A stretch of 64,000 bases of DNA from Parietichytrium sp. I65-24A (Eukaryota; Sar; Bigyra; Thraustochytrida; Thraustochytriidae). Made by a program: the position numbers and the translations under genes. The notes beneath the pieces are model-generated. The model was not told the origin of the DNA. It saw only the letters and a program-made list of their open reading frames with translations, and searched no databases. Positions 1 through 54,170 of this stretch are shown piece after piece; the first letter of the stretch is position 1; the number at the start of each line of letters is the position of its first letter. The stretch covers positions 1,116,001-1,180,000 of the forward strand of contig BLSF01000003.1 in the NCBI GenBank assembly GCA_012862575.1, in the 5' to 3' direction.

Positions 1-930
1 AAAAAACACGTAAAGCACTCGCCTCCGTCCCGTGCATGTGTCGAGATCTGTCTGGATGGCAAGTGTCGCTTAGTTGTGAGCGGATATGCGACATCTCTGG
101 AGAAGCGCGTTTTGCATGTCCGAAGCATTTCGAAGTGGGCGCCTGTTTGCCTGGGTCCATACGCACAGTGCAACGTGGTTCCGGACAATTTCACGTTTGT
201 GGCTGGCCAGATTGCGCTGGATCCAGCGACCATGGAGATCCCAGGCAACTTGGCTACTGCGCAGTCTCAACTCAAACTTGCGTTTCAACACTCTGAGGCA
301 GTTCTCGCATCGCAAAGTTTGTCGCTAGGAGACGCAGTTCGTATAGTTGTCTATGTTTCTTCTCGCGGTTCGTTGACATTTCCGCAGCTTGTCTCCAACC
401 TGCCGTCTTGTTTCCACCCAGCAGATGAGCGAATGCCTCCTATCGCACTGGTGCAGGTTCCCAGACTTCCTAAAGACGCTCTAGTGGAGGTAGAAGTACT
501 TGCTCACAAATCAAGCGCTTGCGAAAGCCAGAAAACCATTCTGGAGCCCATCAACCACCTTGGAACTGCCACTATCGGGGTTCACGTTCGAACGAGTCAC
601 ATTCACGTCAACGAATCGGTGGGCGCAGGTATGCTCACTGTTCACACAAGCTCAAACCTCGACAAAGTCTTGTTCGATCACTCTCTAGAACACATCTGTC
701 CCGAGATATTAAGTCTGCTCAGCAAGCGCGGTTTTGATCCGGTAAACTCCATCTGCACGATGTACTATGACAGCTCCCTTGCTCTAGGCGCCGCCCTCGT
801 CGCGAAGCTGGCGACAGAGCTGAATGTTAGTCCGGTGCCGGTGGACTGTATTGGAACGGAGGATTCTGAACGGGCACTCGTCTGCATCAACACTGTGTTT
901 TGCAAAACTCCGCGATCCGCAGAAGAATGA
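1..930 (+). CDS. DPH6: DPH6-type diphthine-ammonia ligase, C-terminal half (5' end outside window)
   Basis: The reading frame is open from base 1 to the stop at 928-930, so this is the 3' part of a longer gene; the GTG at 76 is not a start. The visible part is two RidA/YjgF-like (L-PSP) modules. The first, from about base 115, carries the SKWAPVCLGPYAQ signature and the FVAGQIALDP strand. The second starts near base 540 and is more divergent. This tandem RidA arrangement C-terminal to an ATP-pyrophosphatase domain is typical of fungal and plant Dph6, which amidates diphthine on elongation factor 2 in the last step of diphthamide synthesis. The catalytic ATP-binding domain would lie left of the window. 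The alternative, a free-standing double-RidA protein, is less likely given the open 5' frame. It is convergent with the next gene. Confidence 0.85.
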   Translation, partial: KKHVKHSPPSRACVEICLDGKCRLVVSGYATSLEKRVLHVRSISKWAPVCLGPYAQCNVVPDNFTFVAGQIALDPATMEIPGNLATAQSQLKLAFQHSEAVLASQSLSLGDAVRIVVYVSSRGSLTFPQLVSNLPSCFHPADERMPPIALVQVPRLPKDALVEVEVLAHKSSACESQKTILEPINHLGTATIGVHVRTSHIHVNESVGAGMLTVHTSSNLDKVLFDHSLEHICPEILSLLSKRGFDPVNSICTMYYDSSLALGAALVAKLATELNVSPVPVDCIGTEDSERALVCINTVFCKTPRSAEE

Positions 931-1372
931 CAAACACAATAGCGACCAAGTTGTAGAAGGATGTTTTAACAACCTTGCTCTTAAAACTGCTCTTACGTTT
1001 ACTTAAAAATTGGCTCAGATCGATATCTAACGTAAACATATCTCCAAATATTTAGCAACTTGACACGGAATAATTGAGCAAACAGCCGCGCTTCCGGACT
1101 GACGACAAGGCGCGTATAGGTCACGTTGTGACACTGAATCACAGGCGGTCTACGAAGCACGAAGCGGAGAGTGTTAGCGCCAATTTAATTTTACTTTGGT
1201 GTTAGTTACGGGCAGTGCGTAGGCTCAAGCCCACAACAGCAGCTGCCGCTAAAAGCAATCACACGACCACAACAGCATCTGCCGCCGAGAGCAATCGTGT
1301 GGAACAATCAGCAAGCTTTTCAAAAGCGAAACAATACAAAATGTACAAGTTAGTCTGGCCATCGCCTCTTGG
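931..1372. other. intergenic, between convergent genes
   Basis: This is the shared 3' flank of DPH6 and the first HIT-like gene. It is AT-rich just after the DPH6 stop, as expected for a 3' UTR. I see no gene, RNA or repeat in it beyond a short GCAGC/AACAGCA run near 1240-1290. Confidence 0.6.
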
Positions 1373-2449
1373 TCATGTCGATAAAGCCGGGGGATGAATT
1401 TGCTGCAGAAAATCTCGAGCGTTGATGCCCTCTTCGAGCTTTTGCAGGACTAATCTGGCCGGAACCCACTTGCTGCGGTAGACCTTCGATGCGCCAAATT
1501 CTGTCAAAGGGCCTACGAGAACGTGCATGTGCAAATAGCCCACGGAAGGCACGGCGTGAAACCCGAACTGAATGTGCGCCGGGTCCAACCAGTACTCGAC
1601 GGAGTGATTGCCGAGAACGTTGCCGGTGCCGAATTTAGCAATGAAGAAGGCGCGGTTTAGTGTTACATATTCTGTTGCCACTCGGATCATCTCTCTGACA
1701 AGATCTGCGTGCTTTGCCTCAAGATCGAAGACCCATCTGAGTTTAACGTTATTCGCTTTGGCATCGCGAGACTTTTGCATGGCGGGCGAACTTTCCGATT
1801 GTTCCATGGCTGGAATCACAAGCATGTGCCAAACCATGGACAAGTCTTTACCCCCCACACCACGGAACGCCAAAACACGACCTGACCGAGCATGAAACCC
1901 AGCGCGGTCGCCAGGCTTGCGCGGAAGCATGCACCCCGTGGCATAAGGTATGAAGGTGGATTCTCCAAGCTGAATCGCCTTCTCTGAAAGAAAGGGAGGC
2001 GCCATCTCAGACCAATCCTCAACGTAGCTGGGCAAGTCTCCCGCAACTTGCTCGTAGACACTAGCCTCCTTCTCTTGAAGAGCATCGTCAAGGAGGTAAT
2101 AGGCGACTTCACCTTTCGTTACATGGCGCTCCGGGAGCCTACGCCTCTTCCCGGCCGCCTCTCGCACTTCGGTACCAGCTGAGCTCGGTCCCGATGAGCT
2201 CTGAATCCTCTCGCAAAACTGATTAGCATCAACCAACCGACTTCTCGCGCAATCCGGGTCGCTCCCCAAAGCGGACTCGTCTGCAGCAGAGCGGATCATG
2301 CTTTCGTTCCCGGTCACGGTGGCGTTGGTCGACTTCAATTGTGATGCCTCGGCACCGCTGTCTCCTGCTGCAAGTTCTGCAGGACTTGTTTGCAAAGAAA
2401 CGGCAGCTTGCCTAGGCATCCTCTGCGCAGCTTGGACGTTGTCCAGCAT
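1373..2449 (-). CDS. HIT-like domain protein (paralogue 1)
   Basis: A 358-residue protein starting at the first in-frame ATG (2447-2449); the frame extends upstream only to a GTG. The N-terminal 130 residues are Ser/Ala/Arg-rich and probably disordered. The C-terminal half has a HIT-superfamily look: a hydrophobic strand ending LVIP (core of the fold), a later FDLEAKHADLVREM helix, and near the C-terminus GYLHMHVLVG, with His307 and His309 matching the last two histidines of H-x-H-x-H. The first His is Tyr (Tyr305). A Pro-Ser-Val-Gly lead-in recalls DcpS and aprataxin-type members. HIT proteins hydrolyse or transfer nucleotides, but the substrate cannot be assigned. It is paralogous to the protein at 5533-6384 on the same strand, across pyridoxal kinase. 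A GTACT palindrome lies about 330 bp upstream. Confidence 0.72.
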   Translation of the reverse strand: MLDNVQAAQRMPRQAAVSLQTSPAELAAGDSGAEASQLKSTNATVTGNESMIRSAADESALGSDPDCARSRLVDANQFCERIQSSSGPSSAGTEVREAAGKRRRLPERHVTKGEVAYYLLDDALQEKEASVYEQVAGDLPSYVEDWSEMAPPFLSEKAIQLGESTFIPYATGCMLPRKPGDRAGFHARSGRVLAFRGVGGKDLSMVWHMLVIPAMEQSESSPAMQKSRDAKANNVKLRWVFDLEAKHADLVREMIRVATEYVTLNRAFFIAKFGTGNVLGNHSVEYWLDPAHIQFGFHAVPSVGYLHMHVLVGPLTEFGASKVYRSKWVPARLVLQKLEEGINARDFLQQIHPPALST

Positions 2450-41766: not shown

Positions 41767-43293
41767 ATGTATCCGGGCAAGCCGCACGTGCTATCGCCCG
41801 TGACGCGCTGCGCTTTTGAGTCGTGTCTGCATAACGCTATTTCGGGATGTGACTACTGCCGCACCCACGGGGGCAGGAAGCGTTGTGATGTCCTTGGATG
41901 CGCGAAATTTGCGCAGGCCCCGACCACGCGCTGTAAAGCACATGGCGGAGGTTATCGCTGCAGGTTTCCTGGCTGCAGCAAGTCTGCGGCGAGCGGAGTC
42001 TTTCATTGCGAGGGTCACTTGGAGGACTCCGTGACCTACTCGGATGCGCCCACCAATACCTCTAAGACCTGCCAGGCCACCAACTGCGAAGCACCTGGCA
42101 CTAAGTTTACCTATTTATGTAAAACGCATGGTGGTGGCAAGCGCTGCAAGTCTCTGGGCTGTACAAAGTCTGCCTGTGGGAAAACCTTATACTGCGTGGC
42201 GCACGGAGGTGGCAAGCGCTGCAAGTATGACAGCTGCAGGAAATCGGCTGTTGGAGCAACGGACTTTTGCGTCCAGCATGGTGGAGGCAGACGGTGTGCG
42301 CTCGTACATTGCAACCGCAGCGCGAAGAGTAACTCGATGTATTGCCACACGCATCAAGAAGAAGGAGAACGGAAACATAATCTTAACGTTGGTAGTACTG
42401 CGATGGCTCCCCCGCTTGGCTTTGCGCCTCAGGGCTTTCCGCAATATCCAGGAATGGCCAACCCCTATGCAGCGCAAGCCGCTGCTGCTGCTGCGGCTGC
42501 GGCTGCGGCTGCCGCCGCAGCTAATCAATATGGCGTAAAGATGGTTGACTATTCCGGTGGCCATCCTATCCCGCCACCGTATCCCGGTCTTGGGATTCAT
42601 TTCCCATATGGCTACCCTATGCCACCAATGCAGATGCCGCATGCGCAGTATCCAGGTATGGCTTCCGACCTTGCACGTGGTTATCCTCCGGTGCTACATG
42701 CTGCTCAGCATGGAGCCCACCATCCCCATGATGGCTACCCATTCTTCCCTCGTGATCCTGCGGCGGCGGCAGCAGCTGCTGCGGCGGCGGCGGCGGCCGC
42801 TGGTGGAACAGCCAGTCGTCTCAGTGGACTCCCGCACGAATTACGGGCTTCGTTTGTCATGGAAAATGGCGCTCATGGTAGTCCGCCTCTTGGATCCATC
42901 GACGTCTTTCGTGGGTCCGGAGCGTCATGGTCAAAGCCATTTGTCTCTCCGGCTGATGCAGCCAGGACTTCCTCCTCTCCGCCGCTATCTTCAGCAGAGT
43001 CCGTTGCTGTGGCGGCATACGAAAAACGAGCAAAGGAACTCAAAGCGCGACAAGCCGGGGAGAGTAATGCGAGTGTTGCTTCGTTCGAAAAAGGCCAAGA
43101 GCCGGACGCGGACGAAGACCAGGACAATAATACTACGCCACCGGCTCCCCCCGAATCGAACGGAATCTCCGTGGCGGCATCGTCGAAAAGCAAGGCTGCT
43201 CCTACCAAGAGACCCCTGGCAATGGATCCTTCGTCAGAGGAGGACAATGTTGATCAAAAGTCGAGCTCTAAGAAGAAGCCAAAAGCTGAATAA
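41767..43293 (+). CDS. HGGG-repeat (C4-C10-C2-H) zinc-finger-like protein 1
   Basis: 508 residues, one exon. Residues about 14-200 hold seven repeats of C-x4-C-x10-C-x2-H, five of them followed by H-GG-[GR]-x-[RK]-C, arranged as three, a 17-residue linker, then four. Such repeats occur in many stramenopile and other protist proteins that databases label 'WRKY transcription factor 19-like', although no WRKY domain is present here. Each repeat could hold one Zn2+ (Cys3His). The remainder is low complexity: a Pro/Gly/Tyr/Met-rich segment, poly-Ala runs of 15 and 14 (coded by mixed GCN codons, so not a fresh repeat expansion), and an acidic, Lys-ending tail (KKPKAE). This looks like a nuclear DNA- or RNA-binding regulator, by inference. 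Its paralogue is at 45637-46881. Confidence 0.85.
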   Translation: MYPGKPHVLSPVTRCAFESCLHNAISGCDYCRTHGGRKRCDVLGCAKFAQAPTTRCKAHGGGYRCRFPGCSKSAASGVFHCEGHLEDSVTYSDAPTNTSKTCQATNCEAPGTKFTYLCKTHGGGKRCKSLGCTKSACGKTLYCVAHGGGKRCKYDSCRKSAVGATDFCVQHGGGRRCALVHCNRSAKSNSMYCHTHQEEGERKHNLNVGSTAMAPPLGFAPQGFPQYPGMANPYAAQAAAAAAAAAAAAAAANQYGVKMVDYSGGHPIPPPYPGLGIHFPYGYPMPPMQMPHAQYPGMASDLARGYPPVLHAAQHGAHHPHDGYPFFPRDPAAAAAAAAAAAAAAGGTASRLSGLPHELRASFVMENGAHGSPPLGSIDVFRGSGASWSKPFVSPADAARTSSSPPLSSAESVAVAAYEKRAKELKARQAGESNASVASFEKGQEPDADEDQDNNTTPPAPPESNGISVAASSKSKAAPTKRPLAMDPSSEEDNVDQKSSSKKKPKAE

Positions 43294-45636: not shown

Positions 45637-46881
45637 ATGGAACAGCCCGGAAATGAGAGGTATCTTGGAGCACATGAGGATGCCTTTCGCGTACCGGCCC
45701 AGCAATCAAATGCGGATCATCTTCATGACCACCACGAACATCAGCACGAACAGCAACATCTCCATCAGGTGGATCACGGACATGAAGATGCGCACGACGA
45801 GATGGAAGTGTTGAAATGTAAGGTGGCAGGGTGCACGAACCAGGCCACCGCCGGCAATTCTACTTGTAGAGCGCATGGAGGTCGTAAGCTCTGCGAGCAT
45901 CCTGGATGCACGAAATTCGCTCAAGCGCCTACGCCCAAATGCAAGTCGCATGGCGGTGGATATCGCTGCCAGCACCCGGAGTGCAAGAGATCTGCCGCTA
46001 GCAGCGCGTACAGGTGCAAAGTGCACTCTATTGAACTTGAGCATGTGACCCCGGTGCCCCCCACGTGCTTGAGGGCGTGTGAAGTTGAAGGGTGCCAAGA
46101 GCGGAGCAGGCTAGTGGCGCTTCTTTGCAAGACGCACGGTGGGGGCAAGCGGTGTGGCGTAAAGGGCTGCACAAAGTCAGCCTGCGGACGGACAGAGCTC
46201 TGTGTCAGTCATGGTGGCGGCCGACGATGCATGAAACTTAATTGTGGAAACTCTGCGGTGGGCTCCACTCCGTATTGCGTAAAACATGGTGGCGGCAGGC
46301 GCTGTGCAGTGACGAACTGTCCACGGAGCGCGAGAAGTGGGACAGAGTTTTGCCAGGCTCACCGAAGGGCAGACGAGCTGGGTGTGCAAAAGCGACCTGT
46401 GCCTTCGCATGTAGCTTCGGACTCGCTCGCTGGAGCCACTCCACCACCTGATCCGAAAGGACAGACTGATTTCGTGCTCAACTCTGGCGAGTCTCCAATA
46501 GACGCAAAATCGCCCTCCCCTCAGATTATCTTTTCGCAGGCAATCTCACCCGAGGATTCAAAGGGCGCACTACCAGCCCCACCCCCAGGCTACGTAGCAG
46601 TGGTAAGCCATGTTCCGGCATCTTATTTAACTCAGGGCGGGTCGTTCCCCCAGCACCTCTTAGGAAATGCTGGGGTTCTTCAACATGACTTGCTCTCTGG
46701 TGGTAAAGCTCACGATCACTCTGCCGGAATACATTTGTTGAGCTCACAAGCAACTGGCAAAGGCTATGAAAAGGGGCCAAATGTGCATGGTGTGCACGGC
46801 GAAGAAGAAAGGGAATCTCACAGCCACGACTTGCAAGTAGACGGCCCAGAGCACAAGCGACAGCGAACTGACTATGCTTGA
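45637..46881 (+). CDS. HGGG-repeat (C4-C10-C2-H) zinc-finger-like protein 2
   Basis: 414 residues, one exon. Residues 28-52 are a His/Asp/Glu/Gln-rich segment (HLHDHHEHQHEQQHLHQVDH), a plausible metal-binding or disordered region absent from the paralogue. Residues about 60-250 hold seven C-x4-C-x10-C-x2-H repeats in the same three-linker-four order as the 41767 gene. Equivalent repeats match one to one (for example TKFAQAPT in repeat 2 and TKSACG in repeat 5), so the array existed before the gene duplicated. The C-terminal 160 residues are Pro/Ser/Gly-rich and end in a basic KRQRTDYA, a possible NLS. No WRKY or other domain is visible. Probable nuclear nucleic-acid-binding protein, by inference. 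Confidence 0.85.
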   Translation: MEQPGNERYLGAHEDAFRVPAQQSNADHLHDHHEHQHEQQHLHQVDHGHEDAHDEMEVLKCKVAGCTNQATAGNSTCRAHGGRKLCEHPGCTKFAQAPTPKCKSHGGGYRCQHPECKRSAASSAYRCKVHSIELEHVTPVPPTCLRACEVEGCQERSRLVALLCKTHGGGKRCGVKGCTKSACGRTELCVSHGGGRRCMKLNCGNSAVGSTPYCVKHGGGRRCAVTNCPRSARSGTEFCQAHRRADELGVQKRPVPSHVASDSLAGATPPPDPKGQTDFVLNSGESPIDAKSPSPQIIFSQAISPEDSKGALPAPPPGYVAVVSHVPASYLTQGGSFPQHLLGNAGVLQHDLLSGGKAHDHSAGIHLLSSQATGKGYEKGPNVHGVHGEEERESHSHDLQVDGPEHKRQRTDYA

Positions 46882-47300: not shown

Positions 47301-49421
47301 TTACCCCGTCACTGCGCCTTTCTTCGGGTGGTTTGGGGTGTGCCAGAAGGCATCCCTGCTGAAGACCCGCTCCACCATCGGCACAAACTCCTTGATGTCC
47401 ATGCTCGAGTAATTAGGGTCAAAGCTGGACTGATCGAAGCGCTCGCAAAAGTCCACTGTCAGGTTGTACACCTCACTTAATTCCGGCTTGTCTCGATAAA
47501 TCTTGCGGATGTCGTTCTCTTTGGCGGGCACAAATTTGTGGTTGTAATAGTACATTTGAAACACCTCATGGTGCTCGAGCATCCAGGTGATCTTCGGGTG
47601 GACATAAGGGCGAAGCAGTGCTGCCGGGAATTCGCCGTGATTGCTAGGGGAAAGTAACTCTCCAACGTCGTGGAGCAGTGCTGCAACAATCATGTCCTCG
47701 CTGCAACCAGCGCGATAGCAGCGTGTGGCAGCTTGCAGGCAGTGTTCATATAGGTTCACCTGGACGCCCAAGTGGGTATCATCAATGTCCACGATTTCGC
47801 TCCCAGGAACGTTTTGGTTGAGCAGCTTCATCAGCCCGAGCGCACGACTCGCTAGCCTTGGTCCCGTGTTCGCGTCACGATAGTACTCGGTCATCAGCGC
47901 CAAGTCCTCCTCCGAACATTCCTTCAAGCTTGTAAAGGTTGTCATCTTGCCCAGCCGCATCGCCTTTTCTGCTTCTACCTGGACGGTGTGGGCATGCGCG
48001 TTCGAACTGGTGCTCATTGCTCGACGAGCGCCCATGCGCCCCAAAGCGACGTTGCGCTTGGCAACGCGAAATTTGTTATCTACAGAATCCAAGTAGCATC
48101 CGCGCAAGTACCGAGATACTTTGCTGAGGTCCAGGCTATCCAAGGCAGCATCTTCACGCATGCGCGCAGCAGCATTGGAGGCTGATTCACATGGTGTCTC
48201 CTTGGGCTCCTCGGCAGGAGCTTCTTCTTCGGCGTTGAACTCGGACCGCCCGTGGAGAATGCGCGTGTTGCTAAAGATGAGCATGTCGCCTTCGCTCAAC
48301 TTGAAGTTTATGTAGCACCCTGGGCGGTACATCTCCTCGATGAGCATCTGCTTGGCGCGATAGAATTTCTCCACCGCTTCAAAGGAGCCCAAGGCCGGAG
48401 TAGCATCGAGGCGGCCGCTGAACATAACGCCCTCAATTTTGCCGTCTACGTCCACAGTAATCATTGGGCGAGTTGTCATAAGCTCGTTGTTGGCGTCGCT
48501 GTAGTGAAATCGCACTTTGGTCGATTTCAAGATCTCGAACGCCTCCGGGTCTCGGAGCCTGAGCGATTGTGCAGCGCTGATTCCGTCCGAGAGCATCGAG
48601 TCCCCGCCAGATTTGCTCTGTTTCATGCACTGCAAGACCTGAAACAGGAGCGGGTTCTGGTTGTAAGGACCATCGGTGTGCAGAGGGATTCCCAGGCTGG
48701 AGTACGCGGTATCCACCACGGAGAGGCCCTCCTCGCCTTGCTTGGGCATCGCTACCACCTCGAACCAGCTTCCCCAGTTGGTCGGCCGGATGAGTCCGAC
48801 TGAGCTCAGGAACGCCTTGTAAGCCGCAGTCCTGCCAGGGGTGTTTTTCACAATCGCGGAGCCCCACGTGAGCAGCGACTCCAGGAACTGAGCGTGCGCT
48901 TCTTGCGATGACTGGAGGTCGCTAAACTCGTGCGTGGCCACCGACAGCGTGAATGGCCCGTCGAACTCTGCGCCCCAAAGTTTCGGCTCTGGTACGGAAA
49001 CCGAAACGGGAACCAAAGTTGCGCCATCTGGTGTGACAACCGAGGCCCTGTACGTGCATGGTTCGCGGATTTCTTGCGCAAGAGCCTCCGGGTCGAGCGT
49101 GTCTTTGAACCCGTCCGCGTACGTAAGCTGCAGCGCGCCGGTGTCATCGATGAACGCCTCTTGCACCAAAGCTTCTGGCTTCCCACAGAAATTAGATACC
49201 TCAAACTTGCGCTGCTTGGACTCCACATGCAGCAGTTCAGGCTGCTGGGTGCGCTCTCTCAGCCACAGCGGGTGCAGCAAAACGCTGTCCGACCCATCTT
49301 TCGCCAAAGCCACCGCTCTTCCGTCGTGGGTCACGCTGGCCCGAAACACACGCGCCAACTTGCCGTTGCTCGCGCGAGACGCAACTGCTGCTTGCGTGCT
49401 AAACCTTGCCGCGCACCGCAT
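47301..49421 (-). CDS. fusion of GBBH-like 2-oxoglutarate dioxygenase and PhnZ/TmpB-like HD di-iron oxygenase
   Basis: 706 residues, one uninterrupted frame from the ATG at 49419-49421. Residues 1-27 (RCAARFSTQAAVASRAS) look like a mitochondrial presequence. Residues about 28-120 match the GBBH-like N-terminal domain but without its zinc Cys cluster. Residues about 150-455 are a TauD/BBOX-type dioxygenase with the iron triad His248-x-Asp250 and His390, ending in the family's RGCYLD block. Residues about 480-700 are an HD oxygenase with every expected di-iron ligand: His560 (LYEHCLQ), His584-Asp585 (LLHDVG), His595 (SNHGE), His617 (LEHHE) and Asp663 (RFDQSSFDP). In bacteria, separate TmpA and TmpB hydroxylate then cleave 2-(trimethylammonio)ethylphosphonate to glycine betaine and phosphate; PhnY/PhnZ do the like for aminoethylphosphonate. 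A one-chain phosphonate-degrading enzyme is the best inference. Trimethyllysine or butyrobetaine hydroxylation is the alternative for the first half. Confidence 0.88.
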   Translation of the reverse strand: MRCAARFSTQAAVASRASNGKLARVFRASVTHDGRAVALAKDGSDSVLLHPLWLRERTQQPELLHVESKQRKFEVSNFCGKPEALVQEAFIDDTGALQLTYADGFKDTLDPEALAQEIREPCTYRASVVTPDGATLVPVSVSVPEPKLWGAEFDGPFTLSVATHEFSDLQSSQEAHAQFLESLLTWGSAIVKNTPGRTAAYKAFLSSVGLIRPTNWGSWFEVVAMPKQGEEGLSVVDTAYSSLGIPLHTDGPYNQNPLLFQVLQCMKQSKSGGDSMLSDGISAAQSLRLRDPEAFEILKSTKVRFHYSDANNELMTTRPMITVDVDGKIEGVMFSGRLDATPALGSFEAVEKFYRAKQMLIEEMYRPGCYINFKLSEGDMLIFSNTRILHGRSEFNAEEEAPAEEPKETPCESASNAAARMREDAALDSLDLSKVSRYLRGCYLDSVDNKFRVAKRNVALGRMGARRAMSTSSNAHAHTVQVEAEKAMRLGKMTTFTSLKECSEEDLALMTEYYRDANTGPRLASRALGLMKLLNQNVPGSEIVDIDDTHLGVQVNLYEHCLQAATRCYRAGCSEDMIVAALLHDVGELLSPSNHGEFPAALLRPYVHPKITWMLEHHEVFQMYYYNHKFVPAKENDIRKIYRDKPELSEVYNLTVDFCERFDQSSFDPNYSSMDIKEFVPMVERVFSRDAFWHTPNHPKKGAVTG

Positions 49422-52904: not shown

Positions 52905-54170
52905 ATGAGCTCGAGCAGCGAGAGGTTCAAGGCTGCGGTGTTGCAGTACAAGTACACGAGCCCGACGCTGTCGCTGCTGGAGAGACTGTACTTGAACGAG
53001 TTCTGGGCCAAGGTGGCTGAGCTGTACCCGCGATGGCTCGCGCCGAATGTGATCACGCTGATGGGGTACGTCTGCGTGTGGACGGCGTTTGGCATCACTC
53101 TGCACGGCTCTCCCAGCCTCAAGGGTGAGCTGCCAGCTTGGAAGTACTTTGTGAACGCTGCGCTGTTCTTCGCTTATCAGACGTTGGATGGGTCGGATGG
53201 CAAGCAGGCACGCCGCACTGGATCGGGCTCTGCGCTCGGCGAGCTCATGGATCATGGCGTGGACGCAGTGGTGACTACCTTGCTCGCTTTGCTCGTGTCC
53301 GACGTTTTCGCGTTCGGCATCACCTCTGTCTGGCCGTGGATCTTCGTGTCTGTTGCCTTGCTCAGCTTCTTCCTCAGCAACATGACTCTGGTGCACTCCG
53401 GAAGGCAAATGTTCTTCGACATGGACGTAATGGAAATCCAAACGACGATGATCATCACCTTGTGCATTGCCGGAGCTTTCGGAACAGACTTTTTTAACTC
53501 CTTCAGCTTCCCGGTTCCCGAATTCGCGCAAGGTATCAAGACCGATCTCGGCGGCCTTTTGCAACCGGAGGAGGCCATTGACTTTACGTCTGGGAGAATC
53601 AGCCTCAAGCTCTTCATCGCCCTCGGCGGGCTAGGCGGTATCCTCATAAACTACCCACAGTACAACTGGGCTTGCTTTAGACCTTACGTGTGGCTCAAAA
53701 AGGAGGACAGGCCCGAACATGTCAAGAAAGGTGTTCCTGGGTCGGGACTTGGGGCACTGCTTTTCCATCTTGCTCTCATTCATACATTCTTTGCGGTCTG
53801 CTGCGCTTCCGTCTACTTTGGAACGCGGCTCGAGACCAAAGAGCGGTCGGAGGCTGCAATGCGAGCCTTTGCCGTGCTCATCTCTTTTTCTTTCGGCGAC
53901 CTAATGGATAGAGTACTTCTCATGCGCGTAGCTCACGAGCCTTTGCCGCTCGTCCCATCTGGCCTGCTTCCTTTGGTTGCTTTTCTGTTTTGCGCTCAAA
54001 ATGACAATACGCTCAAGACCACAACCTTCATCGGCAATTACGAGTGGTGGACCCTTCTCGCCGCCTCAAGCTTCATGGTCCATCACGCTTACTTTGCACG
54101 GTCTGTGCTTGCGCTGGCCAGAGTTCTCGGAATCCATCCTTTTAAGATCGCCCAGAAGAAGAAAGACTGA
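52905..54170 (+). CDS. CEPT1: choline/ethanolamine phosphotransferase (CDP-alcohol phosphatidyltransferase)
   Basis: Last step of the Kennedy pathway: joins CDP-choline or CDP-ethanolamine to diacylglycerol, making PC or PE in the ER membrane. 421 residues, one exon. The signature DG-x2-AR-x8-G-x3-D-x3-D is complete at 98-120 (DGKQAR, Gly112, Asp116, Asp120). The N-terminus has the family's YKYTS...LL followed by W-x-P-N-x-ITL. Around eight to ten hydrophobic segments are spread over residues 45-400, as in Cpt1/Ept1. The C-terminus KKKD fits a KKxx ER-retrieval signal. Choline versus ethanolamine preference cannot be told from sequence. A loop at about residues 207-235 is longer than I would expect. 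Phosphonate head groups (CDP-aminoethylphosphonate) are used by some such enzymes, of possible interest given the neighbouring fusion gene. Confidence 0.93.
   Translation: MSSSSERFKAAVLQYKYTSPTLSLLERLYLNEFWAKVAELYPRWLAPNVITLMGYVCVWTAFGITLHGSPSLKGELPAWKYFVNAALFFAYQTLDGSDGKQARRTGSGSALGELMDHGVDAVVTTLLALLVSDVFAFGITSVWPWIFVSVALLSFFLSNMTLVHSGRQMFFDMDVMEIQTTMIITLCIAGAFGTDFFNSFSFPVPEFAQGIKTDLGGLLQPEEAIDFTSGRISLKLFIALGGLGGILINYPQYNWACFRPYVWLKKEDRPEHVKKGVPGSGLGALLFHLALIHTFFAVCCASVYFGTRLETKERSEAAMRAFAVLISFSFGDLMDRVLLMRVAHEPLPLVPSGLLPLVAFLFCAQNDNTLKTTTFIGNYEWWTLLAASSFMVHHAYFARSVLALARVLGIHPFKIAQKKKD

Follow-up and report, generated by a model that had tools for sequence, protein, structure and literature searches.

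Hydroxylation followed by a four-electron cleavage with O2 beside the new carbinol is the chemistry shared by the enzyme pairs PhnY/PhnZ and TmpA/TmpB and by PhoF, a PhnY-PhnZ fusion from the fungus Fonsecaea multimorphosa (PMC10574752). PhnZ, TmpB and MIOX are the three known HD-domain di-iron oxygenases, and MIOX cleaves a C-C bond beside a carbinol (PMC8177086). Here we analyzed a 64,000-nucleotide stretch of the thraustochytrid Parietichytrium sp. I65-24A (contig BLSF01000003.1, positions 1,116,001 to 1,180,000; hereafter the window, numbered from its first letter), which contains a gene that fuses a TauD-type 2-oxoglutarate dioxygenase to an HD-domain protein. Our results suggest, with a probability of roughly 0.55, that this protein is a bifunctional, one-chain version of an uncharacterised bacterial enzyme pair, with two O2-using iron sites, and that it probably cleaves a C-C bond in a quaternary-ammonium compound that is not a phosphonate. 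The assignment as a hydroxylate-then-cleave enzyme is well supported by sequence and by the predicted fold, and by analogy the C-C version of this chemistry on a quaternary-ammonium substrate appears the most likely one.

The fusion is encoded on the minus strand, without a stop between the TauD and HD domains:
47301-49421, minus strand: complete frame of the fused protein, 706 amino acids and stop, ATG at 49419-49421, with a single place of 100% identity in the genome
48057-49304, minus strand: BBOX/TmpA-type 2-oxoglutarate dioxygenase domain, residues 40-455, assigned from profile, structure-library and fold matches
47304-47951, minus strand: HD-domain oxygenase half, residues 491-706, assigned from the HD tree, the AlphaFold model and fold comparison

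A first-pass annotation of this DNA, made from the sequence alone, had described one uninterrupted frame joining a BBOX/TauD-type dioxygenase to an HD protein in a eukaryote. Each of these points was upheld, and the strand, which had not been given, can be added. Pfam recognizes both domains (TauD, E 1.6e-31; HD, E 8.5e-6), no strong splice-donor motif was found in the inter-domain linker, and across residues 399-490, which comprise a loop insert and the linker, the coding frame ranks first of the six by a small margin. The eukaryotic setting is supported by a source genome of 42.5 Mb in 172 contigs, in which the fusion gene is present once, and by neighboring genes that are of eukaryotic type as judged from their translations.

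All nine iron-ligand residues of the two domains are intact:
48672-48680, minus strand: HxD iron motif His248-Asp250 of the dioxygenase, invariant in 34 relatives
48252-48254, minus strand: distal iron ligand His390 of the dioxygenase, invariant in the same 34
47742-47744, minus strand: HD iron ligand His560, present in 90/90 family members and 7/7 TmpB/PhnZ types
47667-47672, minus strand: HD iron ligands His584-Asp585, from the HD alignment
47637-47639, minus strand: HD iron ligand His595, from the HD alignment
47568-47570, minus strand: HD iron ligand His618, invariant in 90/90 family members and 7/7 TmpB/PhnZ types
47433-47435, minus strand: HD iron ligand Asp663, from the HD alignment

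The dioxygenase triad is the one originally named. The HD set was likewise correct in that all six ligands are present, five of them as listed (His560, His584, Asp585, His595 and Asp663); the remaining one is His618 and not His617, a position that is Lys in 38 of the 90 relatives and hence holds no invariant His. An AlphaFold model of the HD half, built with 42 family sequences as input, none of them from plasmid loci (predicted local distance difference test score, pLDDT, 87) and compared with the PDB, has an oxygenase-type fold, matching PhnZ (Z 15.9), TmpB (14.9) and MIOX (11.0), with all others, which are hydrolases, at 8.0 or below. Given this order of fold matches and the complete ligand set, an O2-using di-iron oxygenase is the best reading of the HD half. 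Its sequence match to TmpB and PhnZ spans only some 45 residues. MIOX resembles it in being an HD di-iron oxygenase, in its C-C cleavage and as the third-nearest fold, but the MIOX Pfam family gave no match at E 0.1 and identity is about 13% across the aligned fold.

By every sequence test run, the HD half is not TmpB. It scores 33.4 bits against the curated TmpB model (cut-off 300) and 33.7 bits against the Phn-HD model (cut-off 214.6), and its identity to TmpB is about 25%, at 45-50 bits. In an HD tree with 98 members, a branch of 100/100 support divides the window HD, together with 90 bacterial HDs, from the TmpB types and from the PhnZ-type domain of another fusion protein of this genome (L093, described below). 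Placing the window HD with the TmpB group gave p 0.48 in the approximately unbiased (AU) test, an uninformative value, since this split is identical to the window row branching first in its own family. The putative substrate pocket also differs from that of the phosphonate enzymes:
47658-47660, minus strand: Glu588 at the PhnZ His62 position, which is Asp in 89/90 family members and His in 7/7 TmpB/PhnZ types
47556-47558, minus strand: Gln622 at the PhnZ Lys108 position, which is Gln in 90/90 family members and Lys in 7/7 TmpB/PhnZ types

The PhnZ Arg158 position, Arg in 7/7 TmpB/PhnZ types, is Glu660 in the window; Lys108 and Arg158 are residues that we take to bind the phosphonate in PhnZ and TmpB. 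The alignment also bears out the earlier proposal that Tyr24 and Glu27 of PhnZ (the YxxE loop) are replaced, by His550 and Val553. In PhnZ, Glu27 contacts the substrate amine and His62 the hydroxyl (PMC7916636), and Tyr24 is a lid residue (PMC8177086). Because the Lys, Arg and His of the pocket are lost, a phosphonate would be ill-suited to it, and a substrate of another kind is probable.

For the dioxygenase half, TmpA is the nearest solved structure both by sequence (E 1.3e-39) and as the top Foldseek match, and the Fe triad and aromatic cage of TmpA are both present, the cage being formed by Trp216, Phe220, Tyr240 and Tyr443. The scores fall below the curated cut-offs for TmpA (NCBIfam NF049936, 214.8 bits, cut-off >400) and for the gamma-butyrobetaine and trimethyllysine dioxygenase models TIGR02409 (184.6 bits, cut-off 414.75) and TIGR02410 (143.3 bits, cut-off 268.3), and the BBOX-like and TMLH-like proteins of the same genome likewise lie under the last two. 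The TauD of a Halomonas locus (L018), which belongs to the HD-linked clade introduced below, reaches 429.6 bits on NF049936 and so passes its cut-off, which means that this model separates TmpA from HD-linked TauD function imperfectly. With BBOX residue numbers transferred through the sequence alignment, two positions stand out:
48711-48713, minus strand: Asp237, at the BBOX Asn191 / TMLH Asp231 position, Asp in 23/23 of the HD-linked TauD clade and Asn in 5/5 TmpA
48411-48413, minus strand: Arg337, present in 23/23 of the HD-linked TauD clade and in 5/5 TmpA, and not in the BBOX and TMLH rows

At the BBOX Asn292 position the window has Ser335; the HD-linked TauDs have Ser in 20 cases and Asn in three, and TmpA has Asn in 5/5. 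The Asn/Asn combination of all five TmpA proteins is thus replaced by Asp237 and Ser335. Asn191 of BBOX holds the substrate carboxylate (PMC13257696), and Asp231 of TMLH, at the same position, is thought to bind the alpha-ammonium of its substrate (PMC7764450). With its intact cage, Asp237 and Arg337, this site would fit a trimethylammonium compound with both an additional ammonium and an anionic group, for example a quaternary-ammonium amino acid.

In the HD and TauD trees, both halves point to one pair of bacterial genes, with less certainty for the TauD half. A search covering a single genome of each species yielded at least 496 bacterial HD matches, and the counts of loci given here refer to the best 80. 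These are 35-49% identical to the window HD, the top ones at about 140-161 bits, and are led by SAR11 and Halomonas. A TauD gene accompanies 18 of the 80, directly upstream and on the same strand in all but L069, and the two genes mostly overlap, by a base or so. Such loci occur in Halomonas, Onishia, Chromohalobacter and their kin, in SAR11 (L031), in SAR86 (L078, with a divergent TauD) and in a gammaproteobacterium (L054), and the arrangement is also present on the Pseudomonas plasmid pF045_1. In the TauD tree the window half falls among these HD-linked TauDs (93-94/92), a grouping that we regard as moderately secure, and the TmpA clade stands apart (100/100); a placement with the BBOX of its own genome is rejected by the AU test (p 0.008). 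The window HD keeps the invariant or near-invariant residues of the family, namely Asn594, His595, Trp613, Phe621, Gln622, Phe658, Cys659 and Phe667.

Five bacterial genomes (G006, G007, G008, G009 and G020) encode an adjacent TmpA/TmpB-type pair together with a separate HD of the window's family, which in G006 and G007 has its own TauD neighbor. The TmpB of these coexisting pairs is above the curated cut-off in three of the five and reaches 255-258 of 300 bits in G006 and G007. This coexistence argues that the HD-linked pair has a function distinct from that of TmpA/TmpB. In SAR11, the family HD (L012, L014, L017) and TauDs of the HD-linked clade (L101, L102, L104) lie at separate loci, and among the SAR11 loci fetched the two adjoin only in L031. 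On a Rhizobium plasmid (L011:4508-12149), a family HD gene without TauD directly follows what reads, from the translations, as a Rieske-type ferredoxin, with a ferredoxin reductase, a GMC oxidoreductase, a choline-type binding protein and an aldehyde dehydrogenase in the vicinity, which suggests that the family HD enzyme can pair with another type of hydroxylase.

With the bacterial TauD-HD pair the fusion shares the grouping of both halves (moderately supported for the TauD half), Asp237/Arg337 and the HD signature NH...W...H..FQ...FC...D..FD. It differs from the pair in being a single chain, where the bacterial genes are separate and overlapping, and in having Val553, Leu557 and Glu588 in place of Tyr, Arg and Asp. 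TmpA/TmpB of Leisingera caerulea (6NPB, 6NPA) likewise combines a BBOX-type hydroxylase with an HD oxygenase, has the cage and the six ligands, and provides the nearest solved structures. The window protein departs from it in its single chain, in the clade of its HD half, in scores below both curated cut-offs, in the changed YxxE loop and His62, Lys108 and Arg158 positions, and in Asp/Ser for Asn/Asn. BBOX and TMLH of carnitine synthesis share the TauD fold and the cage, and TMLH also the Asp at position 237, but they have no HD domain, and the genome encodes them separately: its only other matches to the fusion are two TauD-only proteins of 28-29% identity, the BBOX-like L002 and the TMLH-like L003.

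A eukaryotic fusion of two such steps is already known from PhoF, which likewise joins two hydroxylate-then-cleave oxygenases but consists of a PhnY-type hydroxylase and a PhnZ-type HD, where the window has TauD and a non-PhnZ HD. The PhoF make-up, PhyH/PhnY plus a PhnZ-type HD in one chain, is found instead in L093 (contig C33:493683, covering 493683-494225 and flanks; locus 670-2202, minus strand), a 510-residue protein with a PhnZ-type HD followed by a PhyH domain. Its HD domain has YIGE, HDVGH and all ligands intact and scores 197 of 214.6 bits on Phn-HD, and its PhyH domain is nearest to the methylphosphonate hydroxylase PhnY, at 215 of 500 bits. By sequence, L093 resembles PhoF and, if this genome encodes a phosphonate enzyme in one chain, is a likelier candidate than the window fusion. 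The only Pfam match to phosphoenolpyruvate mutase in the genome reads as isocitrate lyase, so that this test, part of an incomplete search, gave no sign of phosphonate synthesis.

The gene neighborhoods fit a quaternary-ammonium substrate, though loosely. On plasmid pF045_1 (L004), the pair is followed by genes for a choline-type binding protein, a GMC oxidoreductase and an aldehyde dehydrogenase; in SAR11 L031 it is preceded by two OpuAC-type binding proteins and a permease; and genes for carnitine dehydrogenase and another BBOX-like protein lie near Halomonas pairs. A second TauD sub-type, seen in L018 and further Halomonas loci, is cage-less, with Ala and Met at two of the cage positions, and probably acts on a different substrate; its operon also encodes an amino-acid ATP-binding cassette (ABC) transporter, an aminotransferase and a 5-guanidino-2-oxopentanoate decarboxylase, with L-carnitine dehydrogenase near. 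This sub-type belongs to a conserved Halomonadaceae operon (L018, L024, L046, L056, L059, L060, L064, L071 and L081) of an AraC-type regulator, the cage-less TauD, the HD oxygenase, an AruI-like decarboxylase, a choline-type binding protein, a class II aldolase, an aminotransferase and an ABC transporter for amino acids. A second BBOX-like gene frequently lies upstream, and the operon looks like an uncharacterised catabolic pathway.

From these data we infer both reactions, their order, the class of substrate and the fate of the products. The TauD half would use Fe(II) and 2-oxoglutarate to hydroxylate a small substrate, as expected of its family, with the trimethylammonium end seated in the cage of Trp216, Phe220, Tyr240 and Tyr443. 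The HD di-iron site, as its ligands and fold suggest, would then use O2 to oxidize the new carbinol to a carboxylate, cleaving the adjacent bond. The substrate class that fits best is a quaternary-ammonium amino acid or a betaine, cleaved at a C-C bond. More tentatively, and with somewhat less than even confidence, the family could represent a third branch of HD di-iron oxygenases with dedicated BBOX-like hydroxylases, present in SAR11 and halophiles, fused in a eukaryote, and devoted to C-C cleavage of quaternary-ammonium amino acids or betaines. Several observations weigh against our reading of the fusion. Grouping the window TauD with the TmpA clade is not rejected by the AU test (p 0.09). 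The window departs from the family at Tyr553 (82/90), Arg557 (89/90) and Asp588 (89/90), having Val, Leu and Glu, which could reflect a shifted substrate, so that the bacterial substrate need not carry over. The aromatic cage is not the same in both bacterial sub-types, which therefore need not share a substrate, informative contexts for the sub-type with the window's cage come from two loci only, the rest being uninformative, and the substrate assignment leans on the equivalence of single alignment columns.

The first-pass annotation had proposed a one-chain TmpA-TmpB, which would hydroxylate 2-(trimethylammonio)ethylphosphonate and cleave it to glycine betaine and phosphate. The kinship of the TauD half to the TmpA structure, its cage, the Arg337 common to TmpA and the unrejected TmpA placement all speak for that proposal, yet both the TmpA/TmpB identity and the phosphonate substrate now appear unlikely: the HD half lies outside TmpB/PhnZ at 100/100 and, with 33 bits, is far below the TmpB cut-off of 300, the equivalents of Tyr24, Glu27, His62, Lys108 and Arg158 are all replaced, Asp237 and Ser335 stand where TmpA has Asn/Asn, and bacterial relatives share genomes with a TmpA/TmpB-type pair. 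The same annotation had named, as one outcome that would contradict it, an HD half grouping with inositol-oxygenase-like or nucleotide phosphohydrolase families rather than with PhnZ/TmpB; the tree places it outside PhnZ/TmpB, and the fold does not place it among the hydrolases. A phosphohydrolase merely joined to a hydroxylase would agree with most HD proteins being hydrolases and with the annotation of some bacterial relatives as 'phosphohydrolase'. We nevertheless consider it very unlikely, and the order of fold matches disfavors it, as the three known HD oxygenases are the best folds, with a gap to the hydrolases; the full H...HD...H...H...D set is present, and the hydroxylase gene is repeatedly paired with an HD gene.

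The quaternary-ammonium reading that we favor can be given more specific forms, neither of which is probable on its own. One specific guess is that the enzyme converts N6-trimethyllysine to gamma-butyrobetaine, glyoxylate and ammonia by beta-hydroxylation and a MIOX-like C2-C3 cleavage, so that two enzymes of carnitine synthesis, the aldolase and the aldehyde dehydrogenase, would be bypassed. The cage, an Asp237 that corresponds to TMLH Asp231, an Arg337 that could hold the carboxylate, the C-C cleavage beside a carbinol known from MIOX (PMC8177086), and the BBOX-like and carnitine dehydrogenase genes close to some bacterial pairs would suit this route. It is made doubtful by the TMLH-like and BBOX-like genes that the genome already encodes and by the distance of the TauD half from TMLH in the tree, and a direct link to trimethyllysine is wanting. 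Another form, which we consider equally speculative, is the chain-shortening of a betaine carboxylate through alpha-hydroxylation and oxidative cleavage, for instance of beta-alanine betaine to glycine betaine and CO2. This would be the carboxylate analogue of TmpA/TmpB, with the same carbon geometry as for TmpA, and betaine/choline-type transport genes adjoin some bacterial pairs; however, Asp237 replaces the Asn that holds the carboxylate in BBOX (PMC13257696), and the cationic side chains are lost from the HD pocket.

In the literature covered, with most subscription journals outside its scope, we found no account of this HD family, of a system of TauD and HD, or of a BBOX-type hydroxylase fused to this HD clade. 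If C-C cleavage of quaternary-ammonium compounds is indeed its function, the pair would be a second kind of two-oxygenase cassette beside PhnY/PhnZ, TmpA/TmpB and PhoF, carried by marine bacteria that are among the most abundant, and might provide a further path by which quaternary amines become compatible solutes. A function would also be gained for HD proteins whose only labels at present are 'inositol oxygenase family', 'phosphohydrolase' or 'HD domain-containing', and the eukaryotic fusion, supplying both steps in one polypeptide, would allow a clean assay. As a caution, the pairing of a BBOX-type with an HD protein alone is no proof of phosphonate degradation.

Three further segments of the fused protein lie outside the two catalytic cores:
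49356-49421, minus strand: residues 1-22, rich in Arg, Ser and Ala, with zero acidic residues and pLDDT <50 in the model
48123-48227, minus strand: acidic low-complexity loop insert in the dioxygenase, residues 399-433, with pLDDT <50 at 405-422
47952-48056, minus strand: linker joining the two enzymes, residues 456-490

Residues 1-22 are a possible mitochondrial targeting peptide, and the loop insert has no counterpart in the bacterial relatives aligned. A search of viral contigs with the whole fusion protein returned no fusion, and only four distant HD relatives were seen in such contigs; the HD relatives on the putatively viral IMG/VR contigs L140 and L141 have 35% identity. Near the fusion gene lie two related genes (41767-43293 and 45637-46881) with zinc-finger-like C..C...HGG(G)xRC repeats, one of them with long polyalanine runs. 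A frame resembling choline/ethanolamine phosphotransferase (52905-54170) is some 3.5 kb away from it, a nearness that is probably coincidence with respect to the fusion.

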